This document shows, piece by piece, positions 3,515 to 55,395 of a stretch of DNA of 64,000 bases. The notes beneath the pieces are model-generated. The model had not been told where the DNA came from and searched no databases. It saw only the letters and a list, made by a program, of their open reading frames with translations. The DNA is taken from contig CAJVZC010000003.1 in assembly GCA_913019935.1 (NCBI GenBank), forward strand, positions 1 through 64,000, given 5' to 3'. A program made the position numbers and the translations under genes. Position 1 is the stretch's first letter, and each line of letters opens with the position of its first letter. Source of the DNA: an uncultured Methylococcales bacterium (GTDB taxonomy: Bacteria; Pseudomonadota; Gammaproteobacteria; Methylococcales; Methylomonadaceae).

Positions 3515-3799
3515 ATGTCTTTACCTATTAATAAGCTCTCGACAACAATTCCGATCAGTTATCGCTTCTTTAACAACACTCAACAGTATCAGGGGATATG
3601 CACAACATTGACTGATAATAAGTTAATCTTTAACACTGACTCAACCATCCAGACAGGATGGGCACTGGAAGTCACCTTATCACCACAACAATTATCTGAC
3701 GTTTCTTTTACCGCACTGATTGAAGTAGAATCAAGCACACGCATTGATCACCAACACTTTGAAATTAGTGCTATTATCAGCACCATTAAAGCGCATTAA
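3515..3799 (+). CDS. PilZ-like domain protein lacking the usual c-di-GMP motifs
   Basis: A 94-residue protein consisting of one small beta-barrel domain. The opening IPISYRFFNN, the central ICTTLTDNKLIF and the TALIEV segment match the order of strands in short PilZ proteins found next to housekeeping genes in gammaproteobacteria. The two c-di-GMP contact motifs are not intact. No RxxxR precedes the barrel, and the expected (D/N)-x-S-x-x-G position reads L-T-D-N-K. It may bind a protein partner rather than the nucleotide. queD follows 42 bases downstream on the same strand. Confidence 0.55.
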   Translation: MSLPINKLSTTIPISYRFFNNTQQYQGICTTLTDNKLIFNTDSTIQTGWALEVTLSPQQLSDVSFTALIEVESSTRIDHQHFEISAIISTIKAH

Positions 3800-3841
3800 A
3801 GACTGCCATTACAGACCCTCAATCTGTTAATCAACTGAATT

Positions 3842-4246
3842 ATGTACTCAATCACCAAAGAAATTTATTTTTGCTACGGCCACCGACTAATGAACCATGC
3901 CGGTAAATGCCAACATCTCCATGGCCACAGCGTAAAGGCCGCCATTACCGTTACCGCAGATGAACTCAATAATCACGGAATGGTTTGTGATTTTTCAGAC
4001 ATCAAAGCCAGTGCCAGTGCCTACATAGAAGAGCAATTAGACCATAATTTTTTAGTTTATCAAGATGATCCTATCATCCCATGGCTCAAACAAAATAACG
4101 AACGATTCATGCCTTTAAACGAACACCCAACCGCTGAAGTTCTTGCCAAAATGATTTTTTTTCACATGAAAGAACAGGGCTTCAACATTGAGCAAGTGGT
4201 CCTCTGGGAAACGGCGAGTTCATCTGCTTGCTATCGTGAATCCTAA
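3842..4246 (+). CDS. queD: 6-carboxy-tetrahydropterin synthase QueD / PTPS family
   Basis: Converts dihydroneopterin triphosphate to 6-carboxy-tetrahydropterin in queuosine (preQ0) synthesis; the same fold also serves as 6-pyruvoyl-tetrahydropterin synthase. At 134 residues it is of normal size. Zinc ligands are H14, H27 and H29, and the catalytic cysteine is C23 in GKCQHLHGHS (the C-x3-HGH form typical of QueD). Further on are the DFSDIK segment and the C-terminal WETASSS pterin-binding segment. It is followed after 2 bases by the DUF1249 gene. No other queuosine gene lies in the window. Confidence 0.88.
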   Translation: MYSITKEIYFCYGHRLMNHAGKCQHLHGHSVKAAITVTADELNNHGMVCDFSDIKASASAYIEEQLDHNFLVYQDDPIIPWLKQNNERFMPLNEHPTAEVLAKMIFFHMKEQGFNIEQVVLWETASSSACYRES

Positions 4247-4248
4247 CG

Positions 4249-4698
4249 ATGTCAAAACTACAGCTTGTCAACAAATCGTTTTGCCTTGAAAAAATATGCG
4301 AGTCTAATTATCAAAAACTCTTCACCCTGATACCGCAGATCACCCAAATCAAAGCATCCGCTATAGGCGCCACTAACGCCCCCTTAGCATTACATTTATC
4401 AGTCATTGATCGCGCCCCATACACCTTAACACTAGAACTCAGCCACTGTTTTGAGCAACATGAAACACACGCTTTTGAACCCGCCGTCAACATCAAAGTT
4501 TACTTAGATGCTCAAATGGTCGAAGTCATTCGTCACCACGAACGACCCCATGTCTTTCAATCCATCAAGAGTGCTCGGCATTCCATTGCTATTAGGGACT
4601 ATAAGTGGTCTTTAAATTATTTCCTGGGTCAATGGCTCGATCATTGCCTAAAAAACAACTATCATTTCAACAACACCGAACAGCCTGCCGATACCTAA
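4249..4698 (+). CDS. DUF1249 family protein (YqiB-like)
   Basis: A 149-residue soluble protein without a known activity. The family pattern is visible: LHLSVIDRAPYTLTLELS, then NIKVYLDAQMVEVI, and a C-terminal KWSLNYFLGQWLDHCL. The E. coli relative YqiB sits next to cpdA and nudF, but here the partner is queD, 2 bases upstream. The stop codon lies 1 base from the stop codon of convergent recQ, leaving no room for a terminator between the two genes. Confidence 0.75.
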   Translation: MSKLQLVNKSFCLEKICESNYQKLFTLIPQITQIKASAIGATNAPLALHLSVIDRAPYTLTLELSHCFEQHETHAFEPAVNIKVYLDAQMVEVIRHHERPHVFQSIKSARHSIAIRDYKWSLNYFLGQWLDHCLKNNYHFNNTEQPADT

Positions 4699-6966: not shown

Positions 6967-8544
6967 TTGGATAATCTAACGCCAAAGCGTTTCAGCCAAT
7001 TAATCGACTCCGGCCAAGAAAAACTTATTATAGGCGGACTAAAAGGTATTGAAAAAGAAAACCTAAGATTATCCCAAACAGGTTTTATCGCTCAAACATC
7101 ACACCCCAAGGCCTTTGGAGCTGCCCTAACACACACCAGTATTACCACCGATTATTCAGAAGCCTTGATGGAGCTCATCACACCGCCTTCTGCACAAATC
7201 ACGGAGTCGTTAACTTATCTGAATAATATTCATCAATTTGTTTATGACCATCTTCCTGATGAATTTCTACTTGCCGCAAGCATGCCCTGTGGTATTGATG
7301 GTGACAAAAGTATTCCTATTGCCCAATATGGCACATCCAATATTGGTCAGATGAAACATATCTACCGCCAAGGCCTTGGCCACCGTTATGGACGAACGAT
7401 GCAGGCTATAGCCGGCATCCATTTCAATTATTCTATCCCCGAACAACTGTGGCCAACATTACAAGCCCTAAATAACAATTCACAACCTGCTCAAGACTTC
7501 ATTGCCGATCAATACTTTAATCTTATTAGAAACTTCTTAAATCAAGGCTGGTTGCTACTTTATTTATTCGGCGCCTCACCCGCCATTTGCAAGAACTTCT
7601 TTAAAGATCGCCCTTTGACCCCTAATACTTTTGAGTCTTTTGACAACCATACCTTTTATCTGCCATATGCAACGTCACTTAGAATGAGTGATATTGGCTA
7701 TAAGAGTGACAACCAAGCCGATCTGGAAATTAATTACAACAACTTAGCCGGCTATGTCAACAGTCTCACTGCGGCGATTGAAACACCTTACGCAGATTAC
7801 AAAAAAATTGGCCTTAAAAACAACGGTGAATACAAACAACTCAACACCAATATATTGCAAATAGAGAATGAATTTTATAACACGATACGTCCTAAGCAGA
7901 TTAGTGCTTCTGGTGAAAAACCTACCTTGGCATTACAACGCCGAGGTATTCAATACGTGGAAATCCGTTCGCTTGATCTTGATATTTACCACCCGAACGG
8001 AATCGATACCCATACCGCTCACTTTTTAGAAGCTTTTTTACTGACCTGCTTGTTTCAAGAAAGCCCCCAAAGCACCTCAAAACAGCAACAGATTAACAAT
8101 CAGAACTTATCAACTGTTGCTCATGAAGGACGCCGTCCTGGCTTATTACTCAATCAAAATGGCAAAAACATAACCCTCACAGAATGGGCGACTAACATCC
8201 TAGAAAGCATGGCGCCAATCTGCCAAACCTTGGACCAAGGCCAAATCGGCAGCCCGTATCAAAATGCCTTAACACAACAAATCAACTGCACCACTCAACC
8301 TGAGCAGACCCCTTCGGCTAAAATAATAGCGGATATGCAAAAAAATCAACAACCTTTTGCTCGATTTGCCATTGAACAATCACGCCTGCACGAGCGCCAT
8401 TACCGTCAACAACAACTCAGCGCTGAAGAAACTGACACCTTCACTAAAATGTCAATCTTATCAAAAAAACGTTTAGCCGAAATTGAAGCAAGTGACCGTA
8501 TAAGTTTTGATGATTTTCTGGCACAATATTTCCAACAACACTAA
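6967..8544 (+). CDS. gshA: Glutamate-cysteine ligase (gamma-proteobacterial type)
   Basis: First step of glutathione synthesis: ATP-dependent joining of glutamate and cysteine. The E. coli-type GshA fold is recognisable from [27 protein letters not shown], a [19 protein letters not shown] segment and [11 protein letters not shown] choose the TTG at 6967 over the ATG at 6895. An AAGGAT sits 8 bases upstream, the product has 525 residues (E. coli 518), and residues before it do not look conserved. A TATAAT-like -10 is at 6891-6896. The APS/PAPS reductase gene follows 19 bases downstream, which fits a thiol/sulfur operon. Confidence 0.92.
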
Positions 8545-8563
8545 TAGATTACATACCCTCATC

Positions 8564-9286
8564 ATGATTGACACTTCACTCAACACTGCACAATTACAAA
8601 TAGAGCTGGCTGATAAATCACCTCGCGCTATTCTGAAGTATGCATTGGAACAATTTGATCACATCGCCTTGTCATTTAGTGGCGCTGAAGATGTCATTCT
8701 CATTGATATGGCACTGAATATTAAAAAAGATATTCAAGTCTTTTCACTGGACACCGGACGCCTACACCCTGAAACCTATCAATTTATTGAGCAAGTTCGC
8801 AACCATTACCAACTCAATATTGAATTATTAACGCCAGACTTTAAGACACTCGACCCTTTTGTACAGCAAAAAGGCCTGTTTAGTTTTTTTAAAGACGGCC
8901 ACCAAGAATGTTGTGGTATCAGAAAGGTCCAGCCCTTACAAAGAAAACTGCTTAACCTTGATGCTTGGATAACGGGGCAACGCATGGATCAAAGTTTAGA
9001 TACACGGCAAAATTTACCGGTACTACAAGAAGACGAAGCTTTCTCAACTCCAAATCATACCGTTATAAAATTCAATCCATTGGCCAAATGGAGCTCACAA
9101 CAAGTTTGGGATTATATCGAAGCCTATCAGGTCCCATTTAACACACTCCATAGCAAAGGTTTTGTCAGTATTGGTTGTGAACCCTGCACACGTAGCATTA
9201 CCCCTAATCAACATGAACGCAGTGGCCGTTGGTGGTGGGAAACAGATAAAAAAGAATGCGGCCTTCATGCTGGAAACCTTAAATAA
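8564..9286 (+). CDS. cysH: Adenylyl-/phosphoadenylyl-sulfate reductase (Fe-S type)
   Basis: Reduces APS (or PAPS) to sulfite using thioredoxin or glutathione. At 240 residues it has every key site: PP-loop SFSGAED (38-43), the iron-sulfur cysteine pairs C116-C117 and C205/C208, and the C-terminal catalytic ECGLH with C232. Presence of both cysteine pairs marks the 4Fe-4S form, normally specific for APS, unlike the cluster-free E. coli CysH. The frame is open from 8507, but the ATG at 8564 gives the proper N-terminus and avoids overlap with gshA. No sulfite reductase or ATP sulfurylase gene is in the window. Confidence 0.93.
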
Positions 9287-9330
9287 AAAAATTAACGTCA
9301 CTCACCAAACCTAGCCCTCAAAGAAAAACC

Positions 9331-9705
9331 ATGTCTGATAATAACCTAACCCTTCACCACGTTAGCCTATTGGTTCAAGATACTGAAACTTCCGTGACCT
9401 TCTACCAACGGATGCTAAATCTAGAACGCATTACTCGCCCTGACTTGGAGTACCCAGGCGCGTGGTTTCAGATCGGCAACCAACAAATGCACCTTATTGA
9501 ACTCAGCAACCCTGACCCCATTACCGATCGACCTAAACACGGCGGCCATGACCGCCACGTTGCATTCACAGTCAGCAATATTGATCTCATCGTAGACAAA
9601 CTTGATAAAAATAATATTGGCTATAGCCTAAGCCGTTCAGGACGACGCGCCCTGTTCTTCCGTGACCTTGATGGCAATGCTATTGAGATTTTTGAACAAC
9701 CCTAA
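9331..9705 (+). CDS. VOC (glyoxalase/bleomycin-resistance fold) protein
   Basis: A 124-residue single VOC domain of two beta-alpha-beta-beta-beta units. HHVSLLVQDTETSVTFYQ starts the first unit and RHVAFTVSNIDLIVDKL the second, ending FRDLDGNAIEIFEQ. Metal ligands are plausible at H9, E64 in the HLIEL strand, H82 and the C-terminal E, the glyoxalase I arrangement. The substrate is unknown. A methylglyoxal- or thiol-adduct role would suit the gshA neighbourhood, but this is inference. A bidirectional hairpin follows. Confidence 0.75.
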   Translation: MSDNNLTLHHVSLLVQDTETSVTFYQRMLNLERITRPDLEYPGAWFQIGNQQMHLIELSNPDPITDRPKHGGHDRHVAFTVSNIDLIVDKLDKNNIGYSLSRSGRRALFFRDLDGNAIEIFEQP

Positions 9706-9719
9706 ATTAAATAATGCCG

Positions 9720-9748
9720 AAAGCTGTGGCTATTCTAGCCACAACTTT
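9720..9748. terminator. Bidirectional hairpin between VOC gene and bcp
   Basis: The arms AAAGCTGTGGCT (9720-9731) and AGCCACAACTTT (9737-9748) pair over 12 positions with one mismatch around a 5-base loop. A-rich and T-rich flanks on both sides fit termination of both convergent genes. Confidence 0.6.
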
Positions 9749-9769
9749 CTCTTAAACAACCCAATAACC

Positions 9770-10252
9770 TTAAGGCCGATAATGCAATTGCTGCACTCGC
9801 TCTAGAATCGCTTCAGCATGACCTTCATGATTAACGCCATAGTAAGCTTCAACTAGATCACCGGCTTTATTAATAATAAAGGTTGACCGAAGAATAGCCA
9901 TAGACGTCACACCCGCTCTTACTTTTTCTCGCCAGACATCATAATCCGCACACAACTTACCACTGACATCAGACAATAAGACAACATTTAACTTAAATTT
10001 ATTAATAAAATCCTGATGGCTTTCGCAGCTGTCTTTACTGGCCCCTAATACAACCGTATCAAAACCAGAAAATTCATTTGCCAAACGAGTAAAATCATTC
10101 GCCTCAATCGTACATCCCGGCGTATCATCTTTAGGATAAAAATATAACACCACATTACGTTTACCCTGATAATCATCAAGACTAATACTGTTACCGGCTT
10201 CATTCTCGACAGAAAATGCCGGTGCTTTTTGACCCTTTACTAACATACCCAC
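9770..10252 (-). CDS. bcp: Peroxiredoxin, BCP/PrxQ family
   Basis: Thiol-dependent reduction of hydrogen peroxide and organic hydroperoxides. The peroxidatic cysteine is C47 in DDTPGCTIEANDF, with PKDD and the LYFYP strand of the AhpC/TSA fold before it. The second cysteine found five residues later in E. coli BCP (C-x4-C) is replaced by N52. C76 (KDSCESH) and C101 (KLCADYD) are the remaining candidates for a resolving residue. At 160 residues, length is normal. It has its own unit, with a terminator on its left and the rpiA terminator on its right. Confidence 0.9.
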   Translation of the reverse strand: MGMLVKGQKAPAFSVENEAGNSISLDDYQGKRNVVLYFYPKDDTPGCTIEANDFTRLANEFSGFDTVVLGASKDSCESHQDFINKFKLNVVLLSDVSGKLCADYDVWREKVRAGVTSMAILRSTFIINKAGDLVEAYYGVNHEGHAEAILERVQQLHYRP

Positions 10253-10331
10253 CCCTTTTTGTTTTTTAAACCAACCTTTTGCAACGGTTATAGCCTCAAC
10301 CCGTTACGTTTATTTTCCTTTACTCAAAATA

Positions 10332-10349
10332 TGCCATACCGAAATGGCA
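10332..10349 (-). terminator. Probable terminator after rpiA
   Basis: On the minus strand a 6-base perfect stem TGCCAT/ATGGCA closes a TTCGGT loop and is followed by TATTTT. It lies 27 bases past the rpiA stop. Confidence 0.45.
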
Positions 10350-10375
10350 GCCTATTAATCACCTCCGAAAACTTG

Positions 10376-11056
10376 TTATAAACGCTTTAATTCTTCCACA
10401 ACACCGTCAATGCCGATATAAATAACAGAAGCTAAATCACGAAAAACACCATGCTCAATAACCCCAGGCATCGCATTTAAAGTCGTGTCTATTTGTTCAG
10501 CCGTTAACAAAGACCCAAAATCAACATCTAACACCAAATTGCCATAACTGGTAACAGCAAGCCCACTGTTATTGGCATTAGGCCTTAATACCGCTTGACC
10601 ACCGATCCCTTGTAACGCCTTCACAACCAATTGCCACGAAAAAGGAATTACCTCGACAGGAACAGGAAAACGATCACCAATCTGCCGGACACGTTTACTC
10701 TCATCAATCAAAACGATAAACTTATCAGCCGCTGTTGCTAAAATCTTCTCCCGTACCAAGTCCGCACCTTGTCCTTTAGATAAAACTAAATCATCGGTCA
10801 CCTCATCAGCACCATCGACATAATAATCAAGTTTATTCAAGTGTTCTATAGCCATCATCGGCAACCCTAATCGTTGAGCCTTTTGCATACTCACAATTGA
10901 ACTGGCAACGGTTTGCACAACCAATCCTTCTTCATGATGCCGTTGAGCCAAGGCTTCAATAAAACAATCTGCACTTGAACCGGTTCCTAACCCAACAACC
11001 ATACCCGAGCTAACTTCCATCGCCGCCTTTTTTGCCACTCGCTCTTTATCGTTCAT
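10376..11056 (-). CDS. rpiA: Ribose-5-phosphate isomerase A
   Basis: Interconverts ribose-5-phosphate and ribulose-5-phosphate in the pentose phosphate pathway; also needed to regenerate ribulose phosphates in C1 assimilation cycles. Signatures: GLGTGSSADCFIEAL near residue 23 (phosphate loop), YVDGADEV (catalytic Asp), and KGQGADLVREKI. At 226 residues it is of normal length. It is the last gene of the leftward unit LysR - metallohydrolase - SoxYZ-like carrier - rpiA, 36 bases after the carrier, and is followed by a hairpin. Confidence 0.95.
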   Translation of the reverse strand: MNDKERVAKKAAMEVSSGMVVGLGTGSSADCFIEALAQRHHEEGLVVQTVASSIVSMQKAQRLGLPMMAIEHLNKLDYYVDGADEVTDDLVLSKGQGADLVREKILATAADKFIVLIDESKRVRQIGDRFPVPVEVIPFSWQLVVKALQGIGGQAVLRPNANNSGLAVTSYGNLVLDVDFGSLLTAEQIDTTLNAMPGVIEHGVFRDLASVIYIGIDGVVEELKRL

Positions 11057-11092
11057 AAGTACTCCCTAAATCCATTTTGCAACAACACGCAC

Positions 11093-11887
11093 TCAAGGTT
11101 TAACTTGATATGTTTGTGAAAAGACCTTGCCATCCGTATCAATCGCTTCGGCACGTAATTCACCGGCTGACTGAGGCACAAAATAAAATCTAAAATTAGG
11201 ATCTGCACTAATCGCAATATCCGTCTTAGCCGTCAGTACCGGCTGACCATCAAACGTTACCTTTACTTTTTCCACATAATAAGCTGGACGTATAAAGCGA
11301 CTGACCTGATCCATTTGCATCCCGGTGATATTAGGGTGACTGATTAATAATTGCGCCAAATTGGGCTCATTAGACTGTACGCTACTGGGGAACTTGAATT
11401 TCATACGTCCTAATCGCTGCATCGCCGCATCTAAATCGGCTCCAATCGGGGCCGAACAACCGCCACTGGCTTTAACAAACTTTTTCACCATAACAAGTTG
11501 TCCATCATTCATTTCTGCAATAGCACGCACATAGCTGTAAGAATTAACGCGAAGACGCATAGCAACATCCGCTTTACCACTTAAGGGCGTAAAATTAAAC
11601 TCAGCAGCAAAAGGTATCGGATTCTTATCGACAATCAAGGTGATTTTTTTTATATATTTATCATCCGTCTGATTAATCTTACTGGTCACCCTAATCGGAA
11701 CCAAGGCTGCATCTTCTGCACGGTAAGGCGCCTCTATAGCAATAATATTTTCAGACTCACTAATCGCACGCCCTGAAAAAAACTGCCCCTTCAATGTGTT
11801 TTGCCAAACCGTTTCATCAACACCAGCAGAAACGACGCTAATAAAAGACACTAAACATAAACTCAGAATCACGCTAACTATTTTCAT
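11093..11887 (-). CDS. Quinoprotein dehydrogenase-associated SoxYZ-like carrier protein
   Basis: A 264-residue exported protein: signal peptide MKIVSVILSLCLVSFISVVSA, a SoxY-like domain, a cysteine in VKASGGCSAPIGAD (about residue 144), then a SoxZ-like Ig-fold domain with VKVTFDGQPVLTAKTDIAIS. SoxY normally ends in GGCGG. Here the equivalent cysteine is internal because SoxY and SoxZ are fused, as in the family found beside PQQ-dependent alcohol dehydrogenases. The proposed role is to carry a substrate or sulfur adduct on the cysteine in the periplasm. The partner metallohydrolase lies 18 bases upstream. No quinoprotein dehydrogenase gene is in the window. Confidence 0.8.
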   Translation of the reverse strand: MKIVSVILSLCLVSFISVVSAGVDETVWQNTLKGQFFSGRAISESENIIAIEAPYRAEDAALVPIRVTSKINQTDDKYIKKITLIVDKNPIPFAAEFNFTPLSGKADVAMRLRVNSYSYVRAIAEMNDGQLVMVKKFVKASGGCSAPIGADLDAAMQRLGRMKFKFPSSVQSNEPNLAQLLISHPNITGMQMDQVSRFIRPAYYVEKVKVTFDGQPVLTAKTDIAISADPNFRFYFVPQSAGELRAEAIDTDGKVFSQTYQVKP

Positions 11888-11905
11888 AAATAACCTCTTA
11901 TCCTA

Positions 11906-12838
11906 TTAATCTTCCCACTCTAATTCAGCAAAAACGAATGTGATATTTTTTTTATGGAAAACATCAAACAAGGCCCACTGCCCTGCTGCATTTTGACCCA
12001 CCTCAGCAATAGCTTGTTCAATAAACTTGCCCTCTTTTATCATTGCCCGCACTTCTCTCAATAACAGGGACAAATATGACTCTTGGCGTTGCAATGCAGC
12101 TCGCCAGTTAACAAGAACCGGGCCATGCCCTGGAACCACACGCTTAACCTGTAAACGTGATAACCCTTTTAATTCTTTTAACCAGCCCTTAAGACTGCCA
12201 TCAACCACAGGCAGATGCTCGACAAACAATAAATCTGATAACCATAAGGTCTGGCTATTCTCATCAAGCACAGACAAATCATTATCTGTATGAGCACTAC
12301 CGTGCGCTGTAATGGCCAATATTCTGCCCCCTAAATCCAACGTTAAAGAATCAGTCACCGCAATATCTGGCAACACTATATCTTGTAACGTTAAGTTAAT
12401 CCCTAACTGCTCCACAGCGCGTTGGGTATAAAAAATCGCTCGCGCTTGCAGAGCACGCGCAAGATTCTTATGCCCGATAAATTGCACACCGTTCTCTTTA
12501 AAACTACGATTGCCAAAAATATGATCAGGGTGTACATGGCTATTTATGACATAACAAATCGGCACGTCAGTAATTTTCTCAATCGCCTCTTTCAGTAAAC
12601 GACCTTGCTCTCGATTACCCCCTGAATCCAAAACGGCGACACATTGCTTACCAACCACAAAGCCGATATTAGCTATTGCACCATGATTGGTTCGATTAGG
12701 TAACTCATGGTTGCCTAAATGAAAATATAATCCTGGCGCGACCTTCTGTACTGTAAAAGCCTCCTTTATCTTGGCTTGGCACTGCACTGTGAAAAAACCC
12801 ACCCATAGGCTTAAACTGACTACCCAAAAAGATTTCAT
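11906..12838 (-). CDS. Quinoprotein relay system zinc metallohydrolase (periplasmic MBL fold)
   Basis: A 310-residue metallo-beta-lactamase-fold hydrolase with an N-terminal signal peptide ending near QCQA (residues 1-22). Zinc ligands: HVHPDH in VINSHVHPDHIFGN, the later AHGSAHTDND and the conserved VVPGHGPV. The family co-occurs with SoxYZ-like carriers and PQQ dehydrogenases in methylotrophs, where it is thought to hydrolyse something held on the carrier, though the chemistry is unknown. Its start overlaps the end of the LysR gene by 4 bases (ATGA), so regulator and hydrolase are translationally coupled. Confidence 0.82.
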   Translation of the reverse strand: MKSFWVVSLSLWVGFFTVQCQAKIKEAFTVQKVAPGLYFHLGNHELPNRTNHGAIANIGFVVGKQCVAVLDSGGNREQGRLLKEAIEKITDVPICYVINSHVHPDHIFGNRSFKENGVQFIGHKNLARALQARAIFYTQRAVEQLGINLTLQDIVLPDIAVTDSLTLDLGGRILAITAHGSAHTDNDLSVLDENSQTLWLSDLLFVEHLPVVDGSLKGWLKELKGLSRLQVKRVVPGHGPVLVNWRAALQRQESYLSLLLREVRAMIKEGKFIEQAIAEVGQNAAGQWALFDVFHKKNITFVFAELEWED

Positions 12839-13740
12839 TTCGAACCACTCTCCTTTTGATCACACAATTCTAAAAAAGCTTTCACTGCACGCGACTGAAT
12901 AGCGACTTTCGGCGCAATAATATTCAAATGCCACAACAACCCACTGGTTGAATTTAACCGACGAGCCACTAATCCTTCGCGCTCATAACGCAAAGCCTGA
13001 GAAGAAGAAAAACCAATGCCTAATCCGGCTCTCACAGCCTCTTTAATACCCGAAACACCCATGACTTCTATATTAACAGGAATCTCCAATTTCGCTTTTG
13101 CTAACGCTCTTTCTAAAACCTGACGCGCTCCTGATTCAGGCTCACGCCAAATCACTGGGTAATTAAGTAACGCATGCAGCGGAACCGACTCAGAATACAG
13201 ATAGGAAAGCTCATGACCTTCCGGTAAGACCAACACAATTTCATCCTCTTGCCACGGTATTAATTGATAATTCTTAGGCAATAATTCTCGATCAATCGGT
13301 CCTTCAATAAAACCTAAATCGAGACTACTCAGATTTTTCAGGATTTCATGGGTATTTCCCGTTTTCATAAAGACTTGTACACCGTGATGCAGTGTTTGTA
13401 ATTGCACAACATATTTAGGTAGATAAAAGCTAGCTATGGTCATGGTTGAACCAATCCGAAGTGTCCCTGCATTGATTTCCTGCAAACAACGAACAAATTC
13501 ATTGGCTTCACTAAAGCTTTTCTCAAAATTATTCGCATGCTCTAACAAACTCTCCCCGGCCGGCGTTAAGACAATACGGTGCCCCTCACGCTCATATAAC
13601 GGTTCACCCACAGCACCTTGCAATAATTTCAATTGCCCTGATACCGCCGGCTGACCAATATTTAACGCCTGTGCTGCCCGAGTTATACTACAAAACTTGG
13701 CGACGACACAAAAAGTCAGTAAATGCTGTGGATTCAACAT
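12835..13740 (-). CDS. LysR-family transcriptional regulator
   Basis: A 301-residue LTTR. The N-terminal winged helix-turn-helix (about residues 1-62) begins LNPQHLLTFCVVAKFCSITR, with the recognition helix in AAQALNIGQPAVSGQL. The rest is the two-lobed effector domain (LRIGSTMTIASFYLPKY, ALLNYPVIWREPESGARQ). It resembles the CysB/CbbR side of the family; the effector is unknown. It is transcribed divergently from fdhB-fdhA over 182 bases containing a perfect ATC-N9-GAT box, and it heads an operon with the quinoprotein relay genes and rpiA. Control of both units by this protein is a reasonable inference. Confidence 0.9.
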   Translation of the reverse strand: MLNPQHLLTFCVVAKFCSITRAAQALNIGQPAVSGQLKLLQGAVGEPLYEREGHRIVLTPAGESLLEHANNFEKSFSEANEFVRCLQEINAGTLRIGSTMTIASFYLPKYVVQLQTLHHGVQVFMKTGNTHEILKNLSSLDLGFIEGPIDRELLPKNYQLIPWQEDEIVLVLPEGHELSYLYSESVPLHALLNYPVIWREPESGARQVLERALAKAKLEIPVNIEVMGVSGIKEAVRAGLGIGFSSSQALRYEREGLVARRLNSTSGLLWHLNIIAPKVAIQSRAVKAFLELCDQKESGSK

Positions 13741-50805: not shown

Positions 50806-51738
50806 CTACACTAAAAAAGCACGAATTCCTGCTACCCCTTGTCCTCCGCATTCATAGACTGATGTCAAATCGGAGTCCATCATTCCACCCAATGCATAAA
50901 CAGGTATATTTACTTGTGCAACTAATTCCTGAAAATACAACCAACCCAGTGGTTTAGCTTCAGGGTGAGTAGCAGTGCTTTTTACCGGAGCTAAAACCAC
51001 AAAATCTACACCGATCGCTTCTGCCTGTTGCAATTCAGCACGGTTGTGACAAGAGGCTCCCACCCAACCCTCAACCTCAGGGCGTTGATCAAGTGCCATT
51101 AAATCCTTACTGGTTAAATGTAAATTAGCTATTGGAAAATCACCGACCCGAAGAGCAGAGTTCACCATTAATATCACCTGATTCTTCTTACAAAAAAACG
51201 TTGCGTATTCAAGTAACTCTTGCAAATCAGTTGCGGCCACTAATTTTGTTCGCAACTGAATCAATTTAACGTTGTTCTCAACTAAATGAGGCAGTGTTCT
51301 TTGAAGTGAAACTAGACTGTCATCACCGACTATCGGATAGTGACTCGGCAATTGGATGGCATTAACAATAGCGTTATTAGCTGCAGGAAAGGCATAATGC
51401 TTTAAAGCCTCAACAGGCACCCAACGAATAACTTGACCTTCATTAGAGCAAACAGGCCCCATAAACGCATCAACTTTCCAGACCCACAACTTTACCCGTA
51501 AATCAGAATATTGATGATTGATAGCAATCAATGGCCTTGCACCTTTGACGCTCAACCCTAACTCTTCTTTAAGTTCCCGAATTAGGGCGCCCTCAGCGGT
51601 TTCTCCCCGTTCCAACTTACCTCCAGGAAACTCCCAGCGGTCACCTTGATGCACTGACTTGGGCCGATAGGCAATAAGCACTTCACCGCGCGCATTCGTG
51701 ACAACACCCACGGCCACCTGCAAGGTATCATCAGACAC
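50806..51738 (-). CDS. mutT: Nudix hydrolase MutT fused to a ThiE-like domain
   Basis: 310 residues in two domains. The N-terminal MutT domain (about 1-130) has the Nudix box at residues 39-61 (G-x5-E-x7-REL-x-EEL) and would clear 8-oxo-dGTP. The C-terminal domain (about 145-310) resembles a thiamine-phosphate synthase barrel: LIQLRTK, LMVNSALRVGD, LHLTSKDLMAL, VLAPVKSTATHP and YALGGMM. This fusion is common in gamma- and betaproteobacteria; the ThiE-like part usually lacks proven thiamine activity. It lies 2 bases after argJ. Confidence 0.9.
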   Translation of the reverse strand: MSDDTLQVAVGVVTNARGEVLIAYRPKSVHQGDRWEFPGGKLERGETAEGALIRELKEELGLSVKGARPLIAINHQYSDLRVKLWVWKVDAFMGPVCSNEGQVIRWVPVEALKHYAFPAANNAIVNAIQLPSHYPIVGDDSLVSLQRTLPHLVENNVKLIQLRTKLVAATDLQELLEYATFFCKKNQVILMVNSALRVGDFPIANLHLTSKDLMALDQRPEVEGWVGASCHNRAELQQAEAIGVDFVVLAPVKSTATHPEAKPLGWLYFQELVAQVNIPVYALGGMMDSDLTSVYECGGQGVAGIRAFLV

Positions 51739-52984: not shown

Positions 52985-54124
52985 CTATCGAAAAAAAAGA
53001 ATTCGTATTCCCCGAACCGACGCTATTTCTTGGGTTATCTTTTCGCAGTGTTTTTTACAATTATCAACGACCAAATCATGTTCAAGGGGCGACAATGAAA
53101 ATATGACTTCCAGTTCTACCGCACCATTAAGATAATGAATTTTAATATCATCCACTAGGCTGTAGTAATCCCCCAGACAATCTCGAATACCATTGATCAA
53201 TTCTTTTCTTGATGGTAACCAATCATCAATCGACTCTTTTTGCTCATCATCTTCAGGATCAGTATGCACCAAGACATCAGCGATATTGTCAAATTGTACT
53301 AACAATTGATTACGCACCGTATCGGCAATCATATGACCCTCTGAAACACTGATATACGAATCAACCTGAATATGGAGATCGACATAAATATCTTCGCCCA
53401 TACGCCGAGTCCGTATCAAATGAATATTAATAACCCCATCAACAACTGAAATAGCTTGGCGCAAAGCATCAAGCTCATCATCTGAAATAGCCGTATCCAC
53501 TAACTCTTTTAAGCTCTCCATGATGAGTGACACACCAATCTTAGCAATCATTAAACTCACTAAGACAGCGGCAATCGCATCGGCATAACCGTAACCCAAA
53601 AGCATGGCCGCAATGCCTATCAAAACTATAACGGACGAAATAGCATCACTACGATGATGCCAAGCATTGGCCAACAACAATTTAGAACGGGTTTTTTGGG
53701 CAACCTTTTTCGTGAAATGGAATAACCACTCATTACAAAAAATCGATATTCCCGCAATATACAACGTTAATTGATCGGGAATGAGCAATCTACCATCGCC
53801 TAAAATACGACTCACAGCATCCCAAGATATCCCTGCAGCAACAACGATTAACCCACAACCTAGAACTACTGTTGCTAAGGTTTCAAATCGGGCATGCCCA
53901 TAGGGGTGATCTTGATCAGGTTGCTTACTTCCTAGCTTAATAGCGACCAAGACAACAGCATCACTCAGTAAATCAGCGAGAGAATGAATACCATCGGCAA
54001 TCAATGCAGACGATTGCCCCAGTACACCTGCAGATACTTTCACAACAGCTAAAAAAATATTAACTAGCGCGGCAACCAGCGTTGCGTGAGACTTCAGCTG
54101 AACATCGTTATGCTCTGTCATCAT
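52985..54124 (-). CDS. Cation diffusion facilitator (CDF) metal efflux protein
   Basis: Exports divalent metal ions (Zn, Fe, Co or Mn) against protons. 379 residues: six membrane segments, with metal ligands ADGIHSLADLLSD in TM2 and HHRSDAISS in TM5, the HPYGHARFET turn, and a cytoplasmic ferredoxin-like domain with MGEDIYVDLHIQVD and GHMIADTVR. A second, extra C-terminal part (from about residue 290) is longer than in FieF. The motif D-x3-D/H-x3-D suggests Fe/Zn rather than Mn. It follows tusA after 6 bases, in one unit with the ThiI-like gene. Confidence 0.88.
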   Translation of the reverse strand: MMTEHNDVQLKSHATLVAALVNIFLAVVKVSAGVLGQSSALIADGIHSLADLLSDAVVLVAIKLGSKQPDQDHPYGHARFETLATVVLGCGLIVVAAGISWDAVSRILGDGRLLIPDQLTLYIAGISIFCNEWLFHFTKKVAQKTRSKLLLANAWHHRSDAISSVIVLIGIAAMLLGYGYADAIAAVLVSLMIAKIGVSLIMESLKELVDTAISDDELDALRQAISVVDGVINIHLIRTRRMGEDIYVDLHIQVDSYISVSEGHMIADTVRNQLLVQFDNIADVLVHTDPEDDEQKESIDDWLPSRKELINGIRDCLGDYYSLVDDIKIHYLNGAVELEVIFSLSPLEHDLVVDNCKKHCEKITQEIASVRGIRILFFR

Positions 54125-54130
54125 TATATT

Positions 54131-54358
54131 TTAGTCACCCACGATAATATTAATCGTGAACTCACCGGCATTATTATTTGCTGATAGAATCTGATGCCCA
54201 TTAATACGGCACCAAGCCGGAATATCTTGCATGACACCAGGATCCGTACAAACTACTTCTAATTGATCCCCCAGAGCCATCGTTTTAATTTTATCTTGCA
54301 CCCGTATGACTGGCATAGGGCAAAGTAAACGTCGAGCATCTAAAAATTGCTTATTCAT
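54131..54358 (-). CDS. tusA: TusA-family sulfurtransferase
   Basis: Small sulfur carrier. 75 residues, with the conserved cysteine C13 in ARRLLCPMPVIRV, and the fold's GDQLEVVCTDPG segment. The ATG at 54358 overlaps the stop of the upstream PP-loop gene as ATGA; the ATG at 54367 would add three residues. The coupling strongly suggests that the carrier works with the ThiI-like protein, passing persulfide sulfur. Confidence 0.88.
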   Translation of the reverse strand: MNKQFLDARRLLCPMPVIRVQDKIKTMALGDQLEVVCTDPGVMQDIPAWCRINGHQILSANNNAGEFTINIIVGD

Positions 54359-55395
54359 ACATGCCATTCTTTAGGTATTTCCTCACTTGACAACGGCGTA
54401 ACCAAAAATGACTTTTCTTCCCCTTGCTGTGTCATTTTAACCTCTACTTGTTCAGCCTCCCGTCCCTGACTATAACGAGCCGTTATCTGAGCAGCCAACC
54501 AACAATCCTGCTCAGAAAGGGTACCGTCAATTAGTACCAGTGGGCCTGGATGACTAACCGTTGTCATCGTTTGAAACATATTTTTATAGCCCTGTAAAAA
54601 ATTATTCTCGCCTTCTTCTCGAGCAATAATCATCTTAAAATGAGCCTTCGGTCGCAGATGACGTCCCACCTTCAACAACATAACGTCATCTAACTCATAC
54701 TCTTTCTTACCTCTTGCGGTCCATAAATCTACCAACTTGTCAGAATAGCTTTTATCCGTTAAAAAACAACACCCACCAGCGGGCTGTGCGTATTCAGTAA
54801 AACCAAATTGTTCTGCCAAAGCCATTTGGGGTTTTCGTGTTCGACCGCTGAAATCATATAACTCTTCTCGGTTAACCCAACCTTCTTTCTCGGGCAGGGT
54901 TTCAGGTAGATTTTTTGCACACAATGGCCTTAACAAACGCTCATTGGCACCTGACTCTCTGGCGATGACCGGCATCGTATCTTTTCGTTGAGACATCGGT
55001 CGCTGCCCGATCACCTCACCGGTAATGATAAAATCAAAATCATTCTCTTCTATCCACTGCTGAGCCTTTTGCACCATAAAAACCTTACAATCCAAACACG
55101 GGTTCAAGTTGGCACCATACCCATGCTGTGGATTTATCAACACATTCTTATACTCCTCAATAACATCAATAATGTGCAGTTTTATCCCCAGTTGCTCAGC
55201 AACCCATAATGAATTATTTCGCTTAGGCTTGGCTTTATCTTTTTTACGAATAGCATGGGTATGACCCTCCACACAAAAACCCGTGAAAAAGTTGATCCCT
55301 TCTACGTGAACCCCTTGTTCCATAATTGCTTTGGTCGCTAACATGGAATCAAGACCTCCTGAGATAAGAGAAACGGCTTTCTTCTGTTTTTTCAT
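54355..55395 (-). CDS. ThiI-like PP-loop ATPase with C-terminal NFACT-R-like domain
   Basis: 346 residues. The N-terminal N-type PP-loop is SGGLDS (12-17). Further cysteines follow in NPCLDCK (C100/C103) and AGGCCFLTD (C209/C210). The GEVIGQRPMSQ segment is ThiI-like. The C-terminal part contains LDDVMLLKVGRHLRPKAHFKM and NNFLQGY, resembling the NFACT-R RNA-binding domain seen fused to ThiI-like proteins. It lacks the THUMP domain of true ThiI and the rhodanese domain. It would adenylate and thiolate an RNA base, probably with sulfur from TusA; the target is unknown. Often misannotated as MnmA. Confidence 0.75.
   Translation of the reverse strand: MKKQKKAVSLISGGLDSMLATKAIMEQGVHVEGINFFTGFCVEGHTHAIRKKDKAKPKRNNSLWVAEQLGIKLHIIDVIEEYKNVLINPQHGYGANLNPCLDCKVFMVQKAQQWIEENDFDFIITGEVIGQRPMSQRKDTMPVIARESGANERLLRPLCAKNLPETLPEKEGWVNREELYDFSGRTRKPQMALAEQFGFTEYAQPAGGCCFLTDKSYSDKLVDLWTARGKKEYELDDVMLLKVGRHLRPKAHFKMIIAREEGENNFLQGYKNMFQTMTTVSHPGPLVLIDGTLSEQDCWLAAQITARYSQGREAEQVEVKMTQQGEEKSFLVTPLSSEEIPKEWHV

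Follow-up and report, generated by a model that had tools for sequence, protein, structure and literature searches.

A predicted tRNA 4-thiouridine synthase with PP-loop and NFACT-R_2 domains, coupled to a TusA-like sulfur carrier in lineages without ThiI

The PP-loop/NFACT-R_2 protein that an uncultured, methane-oxidizing Methylococcales bacterium encodes next to a TusA-like sulfur carrier is very probably the tRNA 4-thiouridine (s4U) synthase of lineages lacking ThiI. This prediction draws on gene coupling, domain make-up, cysteine invariance, ThiI exclusion, and co-occurrence with the s4U eraser RudS, all of which were computed here. s4U at position 8, for which ThiI is usually held responsible, is among the commonest tRNA thiolations and serves both as a near-UV sensor and as a mark in tRNA quality control. 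The original prediction, made from a stretch of 64,000 nucleotides (the window), proposed thiolation of an RNA or another substrate by a separate path. Its PP-loop thiolase coupled to TusA stands, whereas the substrate, which it regarded as unknown, can be predicted as tRNA s4U because the family and ThiI are mutually exclusive and the co-occurrence with RudS is strict.

Burroughs and Aravind (RNA Biol 11:360, 2014) reportedly defined the NFACT-R domain and predicted a new tRNA 4-thiouridylation pathway with TusA-like proteins. That pathway has the same domain make-up, TusA association, and predicted product as the one described here, but it was reportedly derived from domain architecture and neighborhood, whereas the current study tested the exclusion of ThiI, the association with RudS, and the identity of the active site. 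The basic idea of s4U formation by NFACT-R and TusA is treated as already published. What is added here, besides the results of these three tests, is a connection to a question left open in the paper on RudS. No experimental study of an NFACT-R thiolase was found in the literature searched.

The three genes of the cluster are as follows.

54355 to 55395, minus strand: PP-loop/NFACT-R_2 protein, predicted tRNA 4-thiouridine synthase; 346 amino acids (aa), with SGGLDS at residues 12 to 17, a CxxC formed by C100 and C103, GGCCFL with C210, and NFACT-R_2 at residues 244 to 344.
54131 to 54367, minus strand: gene of a TusA-like sulfur carrier, whose product has 78 aa when started at the first ATG and 75 aa when started at position 54358; Cys-Pro motif CPMP.
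52985 to 54124, minus strand: cation exporter of the CDF family (379 aa), encoded by the third gene of what is probably an operon.

Transcribed from 55395 to 52985, the PP-loop gene, tusA, and the CDF gene are co-directional and probably constitute one operon. The stop codon TGA of the PP-loop gene (54357 to 54355) lies over the ATG at 54358 to 54356, i.e., codon 4 of the listed tusA reading frame, which creates a four-base ATGA overlap. Many homologues align from this start, but the in-frame upstream ATG at 54367 is a possible alternative. All three genes and the overlap described in the original prediction are thus present. Promoter and terminator scans at the cluster gave results no better than those for shuffled sequences. 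The closest named relatives are Methylococcales metagenome-assembled genomes (MAGs). Elsewhere in the window, a gene at 50806 to 51738 (minus strand), downstream of an argJ-like gene, combines a NUDIX (MutT-like) domain and a ThiE-like thiamine-phosphate synthase domain in one protein, as judged by eye from its translation.

In the Pfam search, NFACT-R_2 (PF18297) was detected with 121.5 bits (cut-off, 26.9; E = 2e-35), C-terminal to the PP-loop domain at residues 4 to 160, which is the arrangement that defines the family. Similarity to PP-loop enzymes was only partial (ThiI, 48 bits; MnmA, 41 bits), and neither a THUMP nor a rhodanese domain was matched, the PP-loop part beginning near residue 6. 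The initial description of a PP-loop thiolase that has an NFACT-R-like end and lacks these two domains is borne out by the profile search and by the structure prediction proposed along with it, in which NFACT-R structures were matched. The AlphaFold2 model has a mean pLDDT of 84.5, with low confidence in the GGCCFL loop (205 to 213) that holds C209 and C210. Foldseek ranked ThiI (2c5s) first, followed by MnmA, LarE (including a [4Fe-4S] form), and TtuA, and the NFACT-R part matched FBPS and RqcH (FbpA/RqcH-type; 5h3w, 8s1u); since whole-chain TM-scores were low (about 0.35), these matches apply at the level of domains only. With RqcH/NEMF/FbpA (NFACT-R_1), the protein thus shares the NFACT-R domain and the matched structures, but it lacks NFACT-N and the coiled coil, and its NFACT-R domain is fused to a PP-loop enzyme.

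Membership in ThiI or MnmA proper was ruled out by scores and missing domains. The ThiI model TIGR00342 yielded 48.4 bits against an equivalog-domain cut-off of 264.5, and the MnmA models TIGR00420 and NF001138 yielded 38.1 and 40.1 bits against 236.95 and 284, respectively, far from the firm placement in MnmA that would have contradicted the proposed separate path. A separate MnmA scored above the cut-off in each of the 41 genomes tested, whether or not they have the PP-loop/NFACT-R_2 gene, and the host genome has its own MnmA at 460 bits; the gene is therefore no substitute for MnmA, and the claim of a path distinct from both enzymes is upheld. With ThiI, the protein shares the PP-loop ATP pyrophosphatase domain and a GEAxGQxxSQ-type motif, its TGEVxGQxxxSQ (TGEVxGQRPMSQ) matching TGEALGQxxSQ/TGEALGQxSSQ of ThiI, and by inference the product s4U. 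It differs by the absence of NFLD, THUMP, and rhodanese domains and by the presence of NFACT-R_2, a separate co-encoded TusA, and MnmA-like active-site cysteines. With MnmA (TrmU, the tRNA 2-thiouridine(34) synthase, in its CxxC-C type), it has in common the PP-loop, the positions of Cys102 and Cys199, the [4Fe-4S]-type CxxC, and, probably, sulfur supplied by TusA, but it carries NFACT-R_2 in place of the central and C-terminal domains of that enzyme.

The cysteines C100, C103, C209, and C210 occur at the positions given in the original prediction. All 68 homologues have C41, C100, C103, and C210, and 67 of them have C209. One divergent homologue (locus L055 of genome G087) lacks C209, a portion of the stretch following C41, and a linked tusA, and its NFACT-R end is shortened. 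In the profile-profile alignment with MnmA proteins, C103 aligns with Cys102 and C210 with Cys199, and C100 occupies the place of the Asp preceding these in the DxxC-C type. The profile that the catalytic half matches best is that of MnmA, an enzyme of C2 chemistry, by a small margin over ThiI (E = 3e-16 versus 1e-12). Together, C100, C103, and C210 make up the CxxC plus third conserved cysteine of [4Fe-4S] thiolases; in CxxC-C enzymes of this kind, Thermus MnmA for example, a [4Fe-4S] cluster is present (PMC8584467). An s4U synthase devoid of an iron-sulfur cluster, in which a persulfide passes from TusA to C210 and C103 acts as the other catalytic cysteine, following the earlier scheme for Escherichia coli MnmA, is a variant of the best explanation and compatible with its s4U part. 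The alignment of C103 and C210 with both MnmA cysteines and the nature of TusA as a persulfide carrier suit this variant, but the invariant third cysteine C100, which completes the CxxC-C pattern of [4Fe-4S]-binding MnmA, TtuA, and LarE homologues, makes it rather unlikely.

The TusA-like protein was recognized by PF01206 (76 bits) and has a Cys-Pro motif, DARRLLCPMPVI. Its score with the NCBIfam TusA equivalog NF001423 was 55 bits (cut-off, 78). A second TusA-like protein of the host genome is encoded beside a siroheme-synthase-like gene (G000 contig 2, 48313 to 48519, minus strand; L074:1495-1731) and scored 43 bits, so that neither of the two reaches the equivalog cut-off. The pairing of the PP-loop gene with tusA was surveyed in four sets of homologous loci, and tusA adjoins the PP-loop gene in 19 of 20 order-level, 20 of 22 named, 23 of 29 distant, and 9 of 9 class-level loci. 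This gene order, conserved in 71 of 80 loci, is far beyond chance; some loci keep it although their PP-loop proteins are only about 50 to 55% identical and the surroundings differ. The neighborhood survey suggested in the original prediction therefore did not yield the result that would have spoken against it, i.e., a TusA that fails to co-occur elsewhere. Other recurrent upstream neighbors vary by lineage, with glyQ/glyS in Methylococcales and ALA-dehydratase-like, cyclase-like, and phosphatase-like genes in distant genomes. A dependence on TusBCD was also considered and rejected: DsrH/TusB was present in 36 of 39 genomes irrespective of the PP-loop gene and is therefore not discriminating.

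The CDF protein (PF01545, 171 bits; PF16916, 74 bits) has the site-A residues H47, D51, H156, and D160, which 46 of the 48 linked homologues retain; such an HDHD site is typical of zinc transport, and we take the exporter to be presumably a zinc-type CDF. Its dimerization domain is followed by about 80 extra residues, whose final stretch may duplicate a domain of this kind. Counting only near full-length matches under a strict length cut, beyond which a few more partial matches exist, the CDF gene follows in 17 of 20 order-level, 15 of 22 named, 3 of 29 distant, and 5 of 9 class-level loci, i.e., chiefly within Methylococcales and in certain other Gammaproteobacteria. The tusA linkage is kept widely and the CDF linkage mainly near home, which indicates that the PP-loop/TusA pair is the core and the exporter a frequent companion. 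In one distant genome (L087 of G066, 7569 to 12953), the PP-loop gene is located about 3 kb away from a tusA-CDF pair; these two genes can accordingly stay together without it. The linkage in the order-level, named, and class-level loci is what would be expected if the cluster were a metal-handling unit whose cysteine pairs bind the metal that the CDF protein exports. This is very improbable: a near full-length CDF gene occurs in only 3 of the distant loci while tusA occurs in 23, the cysteines occupy the positions of a thiolase active site, and the zinc-typical HDHD site provides no explanation for an NFACT-R thiolase. Metal binding by C100/C103 and C209/C210, offered originally as the reason for the exporter, is not supported; the cysteines suit a CxxC-C active site of a thiolase.

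The distribution of the protein points to a role as an s4U synthase. NFACT-R_2, ThiI, and DUF1722, the tRNA-binding domain of RudS and used here as the RudS marker, were searched in the same genomes, namely, 309 family-balanced genomes of Gammaproteobacteria (class sample) and 249 genomes of the phylum (phylum sample), two partly overlapping sets. PF18297 was detected in 154 genomes of the class sample (about half), in 34 of the phylum sample, and in 55 of 61 relatives. ThiI was found in 27 class-sample genomes (full-length matches, 24 of them over the curated cut-off) and shared none with NFACT-R_2 (expected, 13.5; P = 2e-9); the 82 ThiI genomes of the phylum sample likewise shared none with the 34 carrying NFACT-R_2 (expected, 11.2; P = 4e-7). 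Genomes are not independent samples or events in such counts, and some are drafts, but the pattern holds at the family level and inside one order. Within Methylococcales, ThiI exceeded the cut-off in 0 of 38 genomes, and it is on these relatives that the absence of ThiI from the host rests, as its genome is 65% complete.

Overproduction of RudS reduces tRNA s4U by a factor of 4.7 to 26 without affecting 2-thiocytidine, which identifies RudS as an s4U-specific desulfidase among the tRNA thionucleosides tested (PMC11417400). The same 2024 study noted two RudS-bearing groups without ThiI, in which a synthase of different architecture may exist, and left the s4U enzyme open (PMC11417400). In our samples, DUF1722 was present in 88 class genomes, 73 with NFACT-R_2 and 15 with ThiI, and in 70 phylum genomes, 17 with NFACT-R_2 and 53 with ThiI; it was absent from all genomes that have neither synthase (0/128 and 0/133, respectively). 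Among the ThiI-negative class genomes, it occurred in 73 of 154 with NFACT-R_2 versus 0 of 128 without (Fisher, 3e-24). The corresponding counts are 44 of 73 versus 0 of about 50 (an approximate total) for ThiI-less families of the class sample and 35 of 53 versus 0 of 6 for genomes of Methylococcales with and without the PP-loop/NFACT-R_2 gene. Such co-occurrence is what one expects of a writer paired with its eraser; most simply, then, s4U would be written by the NFACT-R_2 protein, and the family is a strong candidate for the missing s4U synthase of RudS-positive, ThiI-negative organisms. The host itself encodes an intact TudS-DUF1722 RudS of 308 aa (G000 contig 2, about 3637 to 4563, minus strand; L102:1138-2064) with the motifs CLLG, CPEV, and SPSCG. 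PF04463 and PF08349 were above the cut-off in all four RudS proteins scanned, i.e., those of the host and of distant genomes with the PP-loop/NFACT-R_2 gene. In none of the loci examined was RudS physically linked to the PP-loop gene. About half of the genomes with the PP-loop/NFACT-R_2 gene have no RudS; this is to be expected if the eraser is optional, yet these genomes lend no support. In a ThiI-bearing class genome (G544 contig 25, 27078 to 28575), thiI has a DUF1722 match as its immediate neighbor, so that writer and eraser are physically linked there.

The same distribution bears on whether the thiolase instead serves another RNA position or base (s2U, s2C, or an rRNA site) or a small molecule, the ThiI exclusion and the RudS link being by-products of phylogeny. 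The catalytic half does align best with MnmA, both catalytic cysteines included, NFACT-R is otherwise known from the ribosome-associated RqcH/FbpA, and TusA feeds s2U34 synthesis in E. coli. However, MnmA is intact in every genome tested, RudS is specific for s4U within the range of thionucleosides noted above, and phylogeny alone would not readily produce so strict an absence of DUF1722 from genomes without a synthase at the family level or within one order. We regard a different substrate as improbable.

For s4U synthesis, the family and the SGGLDS motif suggest that the PP-loop domain would adenylate a tRNA uridine with ATP, presumably at position 8, the usual site of s4U. NFACT-R_2, going by what is known of its family, may replace the NFLD/THUMP domains of ThiI in RNA binding. 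Persulfide sulfur from a cysteine desulfurase would reach the TusA-like protein and be delivered directly, taking over the role of the ThiI rhodanese domain; the conserved gene coupling indicates that the TusA-like protein is probably the sulfur donor. Transfer to the adenylated U8 would take place at the site of C100xxC103 and C210, by way of a cluster or a cysteine. The cysteine pattern points to an active site that probably holds a [4Fe-4S] cluster, as in CxxC-C MnmA, TtuA, LarE, and methanogen ThiI. The latter, the [3Fe-4S]/[4Fe-4S] U8-tRNA sulfurases of archaea, resemble the predicted enzyme in s4U synthesis with a CxxC and, as deduced here, an Fe-S cluster, but they are ThiI-family enzymes and are not known to have an NFACT-R or TusA partner.

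The candidate accounts for every RudS-positive, ThiI-negative case in the sampled genomes and is found in about half of the family-balanced class genomes. Thiolation at C4 would thereby have been solved independently, by reuse of an active site resembling that of MnmA, and an orphan TusA paralogue would gain a function. There is an even chance, in our estimation, that the main s4U route of Gammaproteobacteria, counted by family, is not ThiI but a [4Fe-4S] PP-loop thiolase with an MnmA/TtuA-style site, an NFACT-R domain that aims it at C4 of U8, and a dedicated, directly docking TusA. If this is true, s4U, near-UV sensing, and the RudS eraser of these bacteria would all hinge on iron-sulfur chemistry that is sensitive to oxygen.
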